A DNA stretch of 64,000 bases from Leuconostoc carnosum (GTDB taxonomy: Bacteria; Bacillota; Bacilli; Lactobacillales; Lactobacillaceae), in contig NZ_JACHGL010000001.1 of assembly GCF_014207505.1 (NCBI RefSeq), positions 310,001 to 374,000 on the forward strand, written 5' to 3'. The notes below the pieces were generated by a model. It was given only the letters and a program-made list of their open reading frames with translations, had not been told where the DNA came from and did not search any database. Position numbers and translations under genes: made by a program. Positions 42,661 through 57,247 of the stretch are shown one piece after another (within the stretch, counting starts at the first letter, position 1; the number at the start of each line of letters is the position of its first letter).

Positions 42661-43327
42661 ATTTTCAGATATTAAAGGATTTACATTTGATTTAGATGGC
42701 GTGATTACCGATACAGCGAAGTTTCATGAAGCTGCATGGCATGATTTAGCGGATGATTTGGGTATTGAATGGTCAGCTGAAATAGGTAATCATTTAAAAG
42801 GGATTAGCCGTATGGCGTCCTTGGATATGATTTTAGCTACAGATCCTCAAGGTAAACAGTACAGCCAAGAAGAAAAGCAACAATTAGCTGATAAAAAAAA
42901 CGCCCATTATCGCACTCTCATTGCCACAGTGACCCCTGATGATATTTTACCAGGCATTAAATCATTTTTGGATGATATGCTGGATAAAGGTTACACTGCT
43001 AGTGTGGCAAGTGCATCAAAAAACGCGCCAAGTATTCTTAAAAAATTGGAATTAACATCTTATTTTGTTGGTATTGTAGATCCAGCCACGTTAACGCATG
43101 GCAAACCAGATCCAGAAATTTTTGTGAAAGCTGGGGAGTTGTTAAATTTGCAGCCTAGTCAAATTATTGGATTAGAAGATGCCGGCGCTGGTGTTGAGGC
43201 AATTAAGGGTGCTGGTCAAACTGCTTTAGGCATTGGTCCGGCAGCAAAAACAGCAAACCCAGAACTGTGGTTCGACAAAACTGAGAACTTAACATTGAAC
43301 AATATTAAAAAACAGTTATCTATGTGA
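42653..43327 (+). CDS. pgmB: Beta-phosphoglucomutase
   Basis: HAD-superfamily mutase converting beta-glucose-1-phosphate to glucose-6-phosphate. The 224-residue protein has the nucleophile and acid in GFTFDLDGVITDTAKFHE (Asp9/Asp11 region), the cap residues GISRMASLDMIL, SVASASKNAP and the GLEDAGAGVEAIKGAG metal site. The eight-base overlap with the GH65 gene shows they are translated together, and it is the last gene of the trehalose operon. No clear terminator follows before the cysK leader. Confidence 0.94.
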   Translation: MVEFSDIKGFTFDLDGVITDTAKFHEAAWHDLADDLGIEWSAEIGNHLKGISRMASLDMILATDPQGKQYSQEEKQQLADKKNAHYRTLIATVTPDDILPGIKSFLDDMLDKGYTASVASASKNAPSILKKLELTSYFVGIVDPATLTHGKPDPEIFVKAGELLNLQPSQIIGLEDAGAGVEAIKGAGQTALGIGPAAKTANPELWFDKTENLTLNNIKKQLSM

Positions 43328-43406
43328 TAATGAGAATATAGATAACTAATTGACAGACTAACTCATATATAGTAAACTAATATCAATTCAATTTTAGGAG
43401 TTCAGT

Positions 43407-43481
43407 ATGGCACCAAAAGACTTAGCAATGCAATTTAACTGCTGCAGTACGACACGTTTTCGATGTTGTACTGCTTGTTAA
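43407..43481 (+). CDS. Cysteine-rich leader peptide of the cysK operon (24 residues)
   Basis: A short frame starts MAPKDLAMQFN and then has Cys codons at positions 12, 13, 20, 21 and 24, with TAA directly after Cys24. AGGAG (43396-43400) lies six bases upstream of ATG, so it should be translated well. A perfect 7-bp stem GCAGTAC (43444-43450) / GTACTGC (43468-43474) spans the Cys codons, and an intrinsic terminator follows before cysK. The layout is that of ribosome-mediated attenuation: scarcity of Cys-tRNA would stall the ribosome and change folding. The link is inference; the frame and hairpins are read directly. Confidence 0.8.
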   Translation: MAPKDLAMQFNCCSTTRFRCCTAC

Positions 43482-43549
43482 GTGTGAACTTTTGGTCTGA
43501 ACTATAATCAGATCACTCCATGGTTCTGCGAGTAGTTTAACTATTGAAG

Positions 43550-43585
43550 GCGTGTAAATTCATAAGAATTTACGCGCTTTTTGTT
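43550..43585 (+). terminator. Attenuator terminator upstream of cysK
   Basis: GCGTGTAAATTC (43550-43561) and GAATTTACGCGC (43566-43577) pair over 12 bp with one G-T pair around an ATAA loop, then TTTTTGTTT. It lies between the Cys-rich leader frame and cysK. CGTGT of its 5' arm (43551-43555) is complementary to ACACG in the leader (43452-43456), a possible antiterminator contact. Confidence 0.85.
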
Positions 43586-43613
43586 TGAGTTAGATAAAGA
43601 AAAGGAATGTCTC

Positions 43614-44528
43614 ATGTATATTACTAATGTATCGCAGTTAATCGGTCGAACGCCCTTGATTGATTTGCAAGTTAATATCCCCAACCACAGCCACATTTTC
43701 GCAAAACTAGAAATGTTTAATCCCGGTGGCAGTATCAAAGACCGTCTAGGACAGTTTCTGATTGCTGATGGTATAAAGCGGCAAGTTATTAATCAGAATA
43801 CAACTATTATTGAACCAACTGCGGGTAACACAGGTATTGGTCTCGCATTGGCTGCGCAACAACATCACCTACGCACGATACTTGTTGTGCCAGAAAAATT
43901 CAGTTATGAAAAACAGCAATTAATGCAGGCGCTAGGTGCAACAATTATTAACACACCAGCTAGTGAGGGCATCACAGGTGCGATTGAAAAAGCAAAATCC
44001 ATTGCTCAGGAAATTGATAACAGTTACATACCAATGCAATTTGCAAACGCCGCTAATCCAGCAACATATTATCAATCACTTGCACCGGAAATCATACAAG
44101 ACTTAAGTGAGCAAAAAATTACAGCTTTTGTCGCCGGGGCTGGTAGTGGCGGTACATTTGCAGGTGTGGCAAAATATTTGAACGAGCAGGATGCTGGTAT
44201 TAAAAATATTGTGGTTGAACCAGAAGGTTCTATCTTGGCTGGTGGACCCGCGCATTCACATCGTACTGAAGGTATTGGTGTTGAATTTATACCACCATTT
44301 TTTGACACAATATCAATAGATCAAATTATGACAATTAGTGATAATGATGCATTTTATCAAGTGCGTCAGGCAGCTAAAAATTTGGGATTGTTTATTGGTA
44401 GTTCCAGTGGTGCGGCATTGGCAGCTAGTTTAAAATTAGCAGAATCATTACCTGAAAATAGTAATATTGTGACTATTTTCCCTGATAGTAGTGAACGTTA
44501 TATGAGTGATCAAATTTATTCGAAATGA
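43614..44528 (+). CDS. cysK: Cysteine synthase (O-acetylserine sulfhydrylase) family
   Basis: PLP enzyme making cysteine from O-acetylserine and sulfide, or acting as cystathionine beta-synthase in related operons. The 304-residue protein has the PLP Lys in [14 protein letters not shown] (about residue 43), [15 protein letters not shown] and [18 protein letters not shown] 43614 has AAAGGA (43601-43606) seven bases upstream. It is the first gene of cysK-metC-cysE, which would supply O-acetylserine from CysE and allow methionine-to-cysteine conversion through the middle enzyme. Control by the leader ahead of it is likely. Confidence 0.92.
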
Positions 44529-44538
44529 GGGATACAAA

Positions 44539-45681
44539 ATGAAATTTAATACAAAACTTATCCATGGTGGCGTTAGCATTGATGAAACAAGTGGTGCAAT
44601 GTCGATACCAATTCACATGGCTTCAACTTTTAAGCAAAAGACAATTGGAGAATCGCAATATGAATATTCGCGATCAGGCAATCCTACCCGTGAAGCGGTT
44701 GAAAAATTAATAGCAGATTTAGAGAATGGTCATAGTGGTTTCGCTTTTGCATCAGGGTCAGCAGCAATTAGTACGATATTTGCACTATTTTCAAGCGGTG
44801 ATCATATTATTGTTGGTAATGATATATATGGTGGCACATTTAGATTAATTGATAGTGTTTTAAAACGTATGGGGATGACCTTTACCATTGTTGATACACG
44901 TGATTTGGATGCTGTTGAGGCAGCAGTCCGAGATAATACGACAGCCATTTATTTGGAAACACCAACAAATCCATTATTACGAATTACTGATATTAAAGGA
45001 ATCGCGCAAATCGCCCAACAGCATCATATATTGAGTATTGTAGATAATACGTTTGCAACACCCTATATTCAAAAACCTATCGACTTAGGTAGTGATATTG
45101 TTATTCACAGTGCATCTAAATATTTAGGTGGACATAGTGATTTGATTGCTGGTTTAGTGGTAACAAAAAATGCTGAGTTGAGTGAAAAAGTTGGTTATTT
45201 ACAAAATGCTATTGGTGCTATTTTATCGCCACAAGATAGCTGGTTATTACAGCGTGGTATGAAAACATTATCACTCAGAATGCAGCGACATCTATATAAC
45301 GCACAGGTCGTGTTTGATTATCTTAGTACGCAGGCAGATGTGGCACGCATCTATTTCCCTGGAGATCCCCAAAATACTGATTTCACATTGGCTAGTAAGC
45401 AAATGGCAGGTTTTGGTGCGATGATTTCATTTGAATTGGTTGCCGGATTAAATCCAGAAAAATTTGTTTCGCGTTTGAATGTGATTACCTTGGCTGAAAG
45501 CTTAGGTGCATTGGAAAGTTTAATTGAAATCCCATCAAAAATGACACATGGGGCAATACCCCGTGATACGCGTTTAGCTAATGGTATTCAAGATGAGTTA
45601 ATCCGACTATCCGTTGGTGTAGAAGATATAGATGATTTGATTGCGGACTTGGATCAAAGTTTTAAACAACTTAAATCATAA
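44539..45681 (+). CDS. Cystathionine gamma-lyase/beta-lyase family (Cys/Met metabolism PLP enzyme)
   Basis: PLP enzyme of 380 residues cleaving or making cystathionine. It has FNTKLIHGGVSIDETSGA at the start, the AIYLETPTNPLLRITDI stretch, the PLP Lys in DIVIHSASKYLGGHSDL (about residue 198) and the C-terminal IRLSVGVEDIDDLIADL. Sequence alone does not separate gamma-lyase, beta-lyase and gamma-synthase; between cysK and cysE a role in sulfur transfer from methionine to cysteine is likely. GATGAGGGA precedes the ATG. The stop overlaps cysE by one base (TAATG). Confidence 0.9.
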   Translation: MKFNTKLIHGGVSIDETSGAMSIPIHMASTFKQKTIGESQYEYSRSGNPTREAVEKLIADLENGHSGFAFASGSAAISTIFALFSSGDHIIVGNDIYGGTFRLIDSVLKRMGMTFTIVDTRDLDAVEAAVRDNTTAIYLETPTNPLLRITDIKGIAQIAQQHHILSIVDNTFATPYIQKPIDLGSDIVIHSASKYLGGHSDLIAGLVVTKNAELSEKVGYLQNAIGAILSPQDSWLLQRGMKTLSLRMQRHLYNAQVVFDYLSTQADVARIYFPGDPQNTDFTLASKQMAGFGAMISFELVAGLNPEKFVSRLNVITLAESLGALESLIEIPSKMTHGAIPRDTRLANGIQDELIRLSVGVEDIDDLIADLDQSFKQLKS

Positions 45682-46232
45682 TGGTGGTTCATGTGTTTGA
45701 TACCGCTAAATCTATACTCAAAAGAGATCCTGCAGCAAAAAGTTTAATGATGGTTATTTTAACTTATCCTGGTTTGCATGCGTTAGGCTATCATCGTTTA
45801 TCGCATTGGTTGCATTTGCAACATCATCCTTTGTTTGCAGCAATCGTTGCTCGCTGGTCGACAAAAAGAACGGGTATTACCATTGCGCCTGGAGCGCAAA
45901 TTGGCCGTCGGGTCTTTATTGACCATGGTGTTGGTGTTGTCATCGGTGAAACTGCTGTCATTGAAGATGATGTTACCATTTTGCACGGGGTTACCCTTGG
46001 CGCACGTGGGCAAACAAATGGTCTGCGTCATCCCCATGTTGAGCCTCATAGTTTCATTGGGGCACATGCGCAATTGCTAGGTGCTATTACGATTGGCCGC
46101 CATAGTAAAATTGGCGCAAATGCAGTTGTCATCAAAAATGTACCAATTTATACGACTGCTGTGGGTAATCCAGCTCGGTTGATCCAACATGCTTCATTTG
46201 AAAAAAATCCTCATACCAATGATGATATTTGA
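45681..46232 (+). CDS. cysE: Serine O-acetyltransferase
   Basis: Makes O-acetylserine, the substrate of CysK, from serine and acetyl-CoA. The 183-residue protein has the N-terminal helical part (YPGLHALGYHRLSHWL) and the left-handed beta-helix hexapeptide repeats (GITIAPGAQIGRRVFIDHGVGVVIGETAVI; GVTLGARG; GAHAQLLGAITIGRHSKIGANAVVI) typical of CysE. It ends the three-gene operon. It starts on the last base of the previous stop, so synthesis is coupled. CysE, CysK and the lyase cover the local cysteine pathway. Confidence 0.94.
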   Translation: MVVHVFDTAKSILKRDPAAKSLMMVILTYPGLHALGYHRLSHWLHLQHHPLFAAIVARWSTKRTGITIAPGAQIGRRVFIDHGVGVVIGETAVIEDDVTILHGVTLGARGQTNGLRHPHVEPHSFIGAHAQLLGAITIGRHSKIGANAVVIKNVPIYTTAVGNPARLIQHASFEKNPHTNDDI

Positions 46233-50008: not shown

Positions 50009-50033
50009 ACTATTATGTGATACAATAATCATT

Positions 50034-50110
50034 GTGCTAGGGGCGCTACTATGTGGCTGAGAAGAACCCTTTGAACCTGAACTGGATTATACCAGCGTAG
50101 GAAAGTGTCA
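50034..50110 (+). promoter_or_regulatory. TPP riboswitch (first of tandem pair ahead of the NCS2/LuxE/LuxC operon)
   Basis: The aptamer core is clear: CTAGGGGCGC, CTGAGAAG, CCCTTTGAACCTGAACTGGATTATACCAGCGTAGGAAAGTG in outline. The CUGAGA and ACCUGA...GCGUAGGAAAGU boxes mark thiamine pyrophosphate binding. It is followed by a terminator hairpin at 50127-50162, so TPP would stop transcription before the operon. Confidence 0.95.
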
Positions 50111-50126
50111 TACTGATTATTTTAGA

Positions 50127-50199: not shown

Positions 50200-50217
50200 A
50201 TGAATAAAGCTCACTAG
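50200..50217 (+). other. Five-codon mini-frame between the two riboswitches
   Basis: AAAGGAA (50183-50189) then ATG AAT AAA GCT CAC TAG encodes MNKAH. The stop overlaps the first bases of the second aptamer. A matching frame (MNKHH) sits at the same place in the thiW leader. It may be a leftover start of a lost gene or a leader peptide. Confidence 0.5.
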
Positions 50218-50292
50218 GGGCGTCGTAATGACTGAGATGATATATCGGTCCCTTGGAACCTGATCTAGTTTATACTAGCGTAGGAAAGTGAC
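50211..50292 (+). promoter_or_regulatory. TPP riboswitch (second of tandem pair)
   Basis: CACTAGGGGCG, GACTGAGATGAT, TCCCTTGGAACCTGATCTAG and ACTAGCGTAGGAAAGTG show the TPP aptamer boxes. It lies about 100 bases after the first aptamer. A terminator follows at 50330-50364, just before the permease start, so two TPP-sensing gates act in series. Confidence 0.93.
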
Positions 50293-50329
50293 CAAAATTG
50301 TGTAACATCCTGTGATGTTACCGCGCACT

Positions 50330-57055: not shown

Positions 57056-57149
57056 TGAATTTTTTAAATTAACATATTGTCAATTTTCTGAATGTCTTGT
57101 TACAAATATTTCTCACGACTTTTTGATACTTTTATGCTATAATACTTTT

Positions 57150-57226
57150 GTACTAGGGGCGCCACTATGCGTGGCTGAGAAGCACCCTTTGAACCTGATC
57201 TGGTTAACACCAGCGTAGGAAAGTGC
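57150..57226 (+). promoter_or_regulatory. TPP riboswitch ahead of thiW-thiM
   Basis: ACTAGGGGCGCC, GGCTGAGAAG, CCCTTTGAACCTGATCTGG and ACACCAGCGTAGGAAAGTGCC give a complete TPP aptamer. An extended -10 box (TGCTATAAT, 57135-57143) is 7 bases upstream. The sequence is closely similar to the first aptamer at 50034 and continues into a similar terminator and mini-frame. Confidence 0.95.
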
Positions 57227-57247
57227 CATACTGATTGTTTTTAGATG

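Follow-up and report, generated by a model that had tools for sequence, protein, structure and literature searches.

The cysK-metC-cysE operon of Leuconostoc carnosum is preceded by a small, cysteine-rich open reading frame and an inverted repeat, raising the question of whether these genes are controlled by translation of a leader peptide or by some other regulatory device. We analyzed the operon within a 64,000-nucleotide stretch of the genome (the window), and compared its upstream region with those of related bacteria. We conclude that a cysteine-specific, ribosome-mediated transcription attenuator of the trp/his type very probably controls cysK-metC-cysE.

The leader and its operon in the window

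A preliminary description of this DNA had proposed a well-initiated frame of 24 codons, five of them encoding Cys, within the layout of ribosome-mediated amino-acid attenuation. The frame is present as claimed, with Cys at codons 12, 13, 20, 21 and 24 and a Shine-Dalgarno sequence ahead. The features of the locus, all on the + strand, are as follows.

43350 to 43378, +: putative sigma-70 promoter, TTGACA-17-TAAACT (consensus match only)
43396 to 43400, +: Shine-Dalgarno sequence AGGAG of the leader frame (sequence; Shine-Dalgarno-led frames in relatives too)
43407 to 43481, +: leader open reading frame, MAPKDLAMQFNCCSTTRFRCCTAC (sequence; related leaders ahead of cysK in the family)
43440 to 43445, +: Cys codons 12-13 (TGC TGC), the proposed sensing codons (conservation; folding with a blocking ribosome)
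43444 to 43474, +: leader hairpin 1:2 over the Cys codons, with arms 43444-43456 and 43461-43474 (folding; covariation)
43452 to 43474, +: antiterminator strand, segment 2, with core ACACGTTTTC at 43452-43461 (duplex; covariation)
43464 to 43478, +: stretch holding Cys codons 20, 21 and 24, both on and beside the hairpin's 3' arm (absent from some leaders)
43533 to 43555, +: antiterminator strand, segment 3, with core GAAGGCGTGT at 43546-43555, common to the terminator 5' arm (duplex; covariation)
43546 to 43581, +: intrinsic terminator 3:4, a 16-bp stem with a T run at 43578-43582 (folding; covarying pairs)
43614 to 44528, +: cysK, cysteine synthase/cystathionine beta-synthase type (TIGR01139, E 5.5e-94, below the curated cut-off)
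44539 to 45681, +: cystathionine gamma-lyase/synthase gene, metC/ctl (NF004821, E 8.3e-165, below the curated cut-off)
45681 to 46232, +: cysE/epsC, serine O-acetyltransferase (NF041874, 203 bits, above the cut-off)

Adjacent Cys codons are rare in frames of this kind: only four of the 172 Shine-Dalgarno-led frames of 12-70 codons in the window contain them, and the cysK leader is the only one with two such pairs. A short DNA pattern, searched against the organism's own genome, matched solely at the cysK leader site, and a covariance-model search likewise found a single copy of the leader in this genome.

Both hairpins proposed earlier exist, although each had been drawn too short. The stem over the Cys codons, given as 7 bp, extends to 13 bp with one bulge (-18.4 kcal/mol; z -4.6 relative to shuffled sequence), and the terminator that precedes cysK, given as 12 bp with a T tract, has a stem of 16 bp (-20.2 kcal/mol; z -7.3 relative to shuffled sequence). 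One terminator-like site was found in the region, where 0.1 were expected. The pairing of ACACG with CGTGT, offered as a possible antiterminator, proved real and is part of a longer conserved helix, 43452-43474 with 43533-43555 (-25.9 kcal/mol; z -5.3 with the leader strand shuffled as control).

Control of this operon by a T-box or a metabolite-binding riboswitch is one alternative: cysteine genes elsewhere in the Bacillota have T-boxes, and L. paracasei is reported to have one Cys T-box (PMC6004538). Covariance models for T-box, S-box and other Rfam elements yielded no match at gathering score across 43300-43700, with only chance-level matches at E up to 10. Further, the three helices account for the conserved structure of the leader, itself a short translated frame. 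We regard T-box or riboswitch control as extremely improbable.

Elsewhere in the window there is a tandem pair of TPP riboswitches on one strand, separated by 85 bases (50029-50120 and 50206-50303) and each scoring above the Rfam gathering score; this pair may constitute a two-input or steeper switch. A third TPP riboswitch is located at 57145-57238.

Conservation and covariation among relatives

The preliminary description had called for a comparison of the frame, Cys codons and terminator ahead of cysK in related species. Our search of 398 genomes of the family for CysK orthologs recovered one at E <= 1e-95 in 104 of them. By CysK, the closest named relatives of this Leuconostoc are L. miyukkimchii and L. 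rapi. In 102 of the 105 regions upstream of cysK in Lactobacillaceae, a script detected a Shine-Dalgarno-led frame of 12-70 codons with adjacent Cys codons. Of the other three, two (L154 and L158) carry a leader with a weak Shine-Dalgarno sequence, recognized by eye, and one was lost at a contig end. Leader-bearing genera include Secundilactobacillus, Lentilactobacillus, Paucilactobacillus, Companilactobacillus, Loigolactobacillus, Lacticaseibacillus, Liquorilactobacillus and Limosilactobacillus. The terminator is also conserved in these relatives. It is generally separated from cysK by about 30 bases, but by 130-350 bases at L039-L044, L055 and L139, which are Secundilactobacillus and some Companilactobacillus loci.

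Across relatives the first Cys codon falls at position 10-16 of the leader. Both codons of the Cys pair are exclusively TGT or TGC in 71 non-redundant leaders, an invariance that is partly by construction, since only leaders with adjacent Cys codons entered the set; the near-universal presence of a leader at the family's cysK genes is not by construction. Cys codons beyond the first cluster are present in 50 of the 71 leaders and absent from 21. Thus, of the five Cys codons pointed out originally, the pair at 12-13 is universal in relatives, whereas those at 20, 21 and 24 are not.

All three helices show covariation among relatives. When segments of 75 non-redundant leaders were paired, those from the same leader formed an antiterminator of -23.3 kcal/mol on average, compared with -16.1 kcal/mol for mismatched leaders, an advantage reached in none of 10,000 permutations. 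When 32 leaders were aligned with MAFFT, 95.8% of the cells in the 9-bp antiterminator core were paired and eight of the nine pairs had changed on both sides; sliding the partner by one to three columns reduced pairing to 36-55%. Parsimony on the CysK tree (43 loci) counted approximately 21 compensatory events in the antiterminator, relative to 0-7 with slid partners. The leader hairpin exhibited both-side changes in six of seven consensus pairs, and the terminator pairs also covary among relatives. Covariation thus supports every one of the segment pairings expected of a classical attenuator (1:2, 2:3 and 3:4). Other hallmarks of such attenuators are found here as well: (i) a leader frame with its own ribosome-binding site, (ii) conserved tandem codons for the amino acid that the operon serves, (iii) an intrinsic terminator between the leader frame and the first gene, and (iv) a conserved antiterminator that excludes the terminator. 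Family conservation and covarying alternative helices therefore bear out the attenuation layout that had been proposed for this locus.

Individual loci depart from this pattern. On plasmid pLBCZ-1 of Lacticaseibacillus casei ATCC 393, the cysK leader (L115; peptide part CCCRTTLFWRC) reads CTT at a conserved CGT codon of the antiterminator strand. This change weakens the antiterminator pairing, and the strain may therefore be poorly inducible. The pairing was weak or not recovered in L114 (E. faecalis), L021, L058, L017 and L019. Four of these (L114, L021, L017 and L058) lie outside the core group and do have a Cys leader, usually with a terminator; perhaps the Cys-rich leaders of more distant cysK genes represent an older or differently wired form.

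The conserved frame could alternatively encode an arrest peptide, which itself stalls the ribosome on a signal other than the charging of Cys-tRNA. The peptide stretch past the Cys codons is indeed conserved within clades (e.g., STTRF or GSRL); however, the conserved residues are encoded by the antiterminator strand, the peptide varies in its N-terminal part, and adjacent Cys codons are what the leaders have in common. We consider nascent-peptide arrest very unlikely.

Ribosome position and the proposed mechanism

We modeled the effect of a ribosome on the attenuator by barring a fixed footprint from pairing in a transcript that ends before the terminator 3' arm. For the window leader, the probability of the antiterminator was 0.11 without a ribosome, 1.00 with a ribosome at codon 12, and 0.86 at codon 13, but 0 at codons 20 and 21 and 0.21 at codon 24. 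With the ribosome on the stop codon it was 0.99, a state that so simple a fixed-footprint model cannot resolve. Over 71 leaders, the probability rose from 0.42 without a ribosome to 0.86 with one at the first Cys codon; in 31 of the 71, the antiterminator was already favored in the partial transcript without a ribosome. In this model the antiterminator is favored by a stall at codons 12-13, and also by a ribosome on the stop codon, whereas termination is the predicted outcome of a stall at codons 20-21. We propose codons 12-13 as the probable sensing codons; Cys codons 20, 21 and 24 are probably mostly a consequence of pairing with the surroundings of the first cluster.

In equilibrium folding of the full-length window leader, the terminator dominated in every ribosome state (P 0.86 with a stalled ribosome). 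Such folding is therefore uninformative about the switch, whose decision must be kinetic, as is usual for attenuators.

We infer both ribosome stalling and the direction of control in this organism, as follows. When Cys-tRNA is sufficient, the ribosome would pass codons 12-13 without stalling, and the segment just beyond them would be masked or taken up in the leader hairpin; the terminator would then form, ending transcription before cysK. When Cys-tRNA is scarce, the ribosome would stall at one of these two codons, within the 5' side of that hairpin. Such a stall would free 43452-43474 to pair with 43533-43555, including the terminator 5' arm, and the antiterminator so formed would block the terminator, allowing transcription of cysK-metC-cysE.

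Cysteine response, proposed regulon and known systems

A cysteine response has been measured in a cheese bacterium. In L. paracasei FAM18149, cysK2-ctl1-cysE2 was upregulated about eightfold (log2 about 3) in cysteine-deficient relative to methionine-deficient medium, its 5'-UTR was over-represented in the reads, no T-box was found there, and the authors called the mechanism yet to be discovered (PMC6004538). They also noted an upstream motif, AAGGGCGCGAAA-N16-TTTCGCGCCCTT (PMC6004538). We found that the L. paracasei plasmid copy L111 contains this motif exactly, as its terminator, with the leader MSQSMFNAINCCCRTTRFWRCSAC ahead of it and the antiterminator pairing present. A blastn search for similar DNA on plasmids returned nothing, whereas the protein search did find plasmid copies.

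These data bear on a further alternative, in which a DNA-binding repressor or activator uses the inverted repeat as its operator and the small frame is incidental. As quoted in PMC6004538, Liu 2012 lists the repeat as a palindromic regulatory motif, one that recurs upstream of cystathionine genes in lactobacilli. Yet the repeat is a terminator, T run included; it differs in sequence between species but keeps its pairing with the leader frame; and the Shine-Dalgarno sequence, frame and Cys codons of the small frame are conserved. The excess of 5'-UTR reads in L. paracasei fits premature termination. An operator role is accordingly highly improbable. The rise of cysK2-ctl1-cysE2 without cysteine is in the direction predicted by the attenuator model, and an attenuator would explain the response measured in that species. 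The model provides a mechanism, open to testing, by which cysK-ctl-cysE may respond to cysteine, a response that underlies the conversion of methionine to cysteine in dairy lactobacilli.

The leader is not special to this strain but belongs to a family-wide regulon. A covariance model built from 32 leaders and run on the 398 family genomes produced matches at E <= 0.01 in 185 of them, many away from cysK, although the weaker matches include false positives. Two of these, L249 (E 4.4e-7) and L254 (E 2.3e-6), lack a Cys leader and were rejected as terminator-driven; matches weaker than about 1e-8 were therefore not relied on unless a leader was visible. The genes behind 40 fetched regions were assigned by HMM for representatives (L216, L220, L237, L251 and L255) and otherwise judged from N-terminal sequence. 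They comprise 23 cystathionine gamma-lyase/synthase-like genes, four encoding OppA-like lipoproteins, three cystine-type ABC permeases, three MetA-like acyltransferases and three cysK; the remaining regions stop at a contig end (two) or are false positives (two). The antiterminator is kept at these sites (28 sites; -22.1 for cognate relative to -16.8 for mismatched segments; 0 of 10,000 permutations). The leader also precedes cysK in one genus of another family of the order (L264). Region L246 (G345:C6) has two Cys leader matches, near 77435 and 79635 and about 2.2 kb apart, each apparently preceding an OppA-like lipoprotein gene.

The product of the L. paracasei gene annotated metA is reported to be a serine acetyltransferase (PMC6004538), so that a place for MetA-like genes in a cysteine regulon would be sensible. 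Taken together, the Lactobacillales probably possess a cysteine regulon run by leader-peptide attenuators, found also on plasmids and in a second family, in place of the T-box or transcription-factor control of other Bacillota; through copying or gain, a single kind of cis-element would have come to stand before cysK-ctl-cysE and before operons with stand-alone cystathionine lyase, cystine ABC transporter, OppA-like or MetA-like genes. The covariance model provides a means to annotate such leaders, whose presence in turn hints at the function of the transporter, OppA-like and MetA-like genes behind them.

Our literature search, which covered freely readable papers, found no description of the cysK Cys leader or its regulon. 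The mechanism is of a known kind; the leader family, its breadth and its regulon appear undescribed in that literature. Attenuators of the trp/his type are familiar from the Proteobacteria. The cysK leader resembles them in having a leader frame with tandem codons for the pathway amino acid, a hairpin over those codons, and mutually exclusive antiterminator and terminator before the first gene, but it serves cysteine and occurs in Lactobacillales; the likeness is one of plan, and we claim no sequence relation. A further parallel is uORFC-8-2 of the Rhodobacterales, in which two tandem Cys codons (around codons 14-15) lie in the first stem and an intrinsic terminator follows (PMC8632094). That element, however, is from another phylum and is reported exclusively upstream of cysS (PMC8632094), whereas the Lactobacillales leaders precede cysK, cystathionine lyase, cystine transporter, OppA-like and MetA-like genes. 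Short frames with Cys runs also precede cysteine operons in Mycobacterium, Propionibacterium and Bifidobacterium (PMC1262725; Canestrari 2020, as cited elsewhere). For those actinobacterial leaders no conserved terminator was found (PMC1262725) and the mycobacterial poly-Cys frames are described as leaderless, in contrast to the cysK leader, which has an intrinsic terminator and AGGAG at 43396-43400 before its ATG at 43407. Within the Bacillota, where T-boxes are usual, the histidine leader peptides of hisS/hisZ in bacilli (PMC2965389) are likewise leader-peptide attenuators, but they concern another amino acid and other genes, and neither cysK nor Leuconostoc appears in the main text of that paper. 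To the few leader-peptide attenuators known in Bacillota, the leaders described here add a multi-operon cysteine case.
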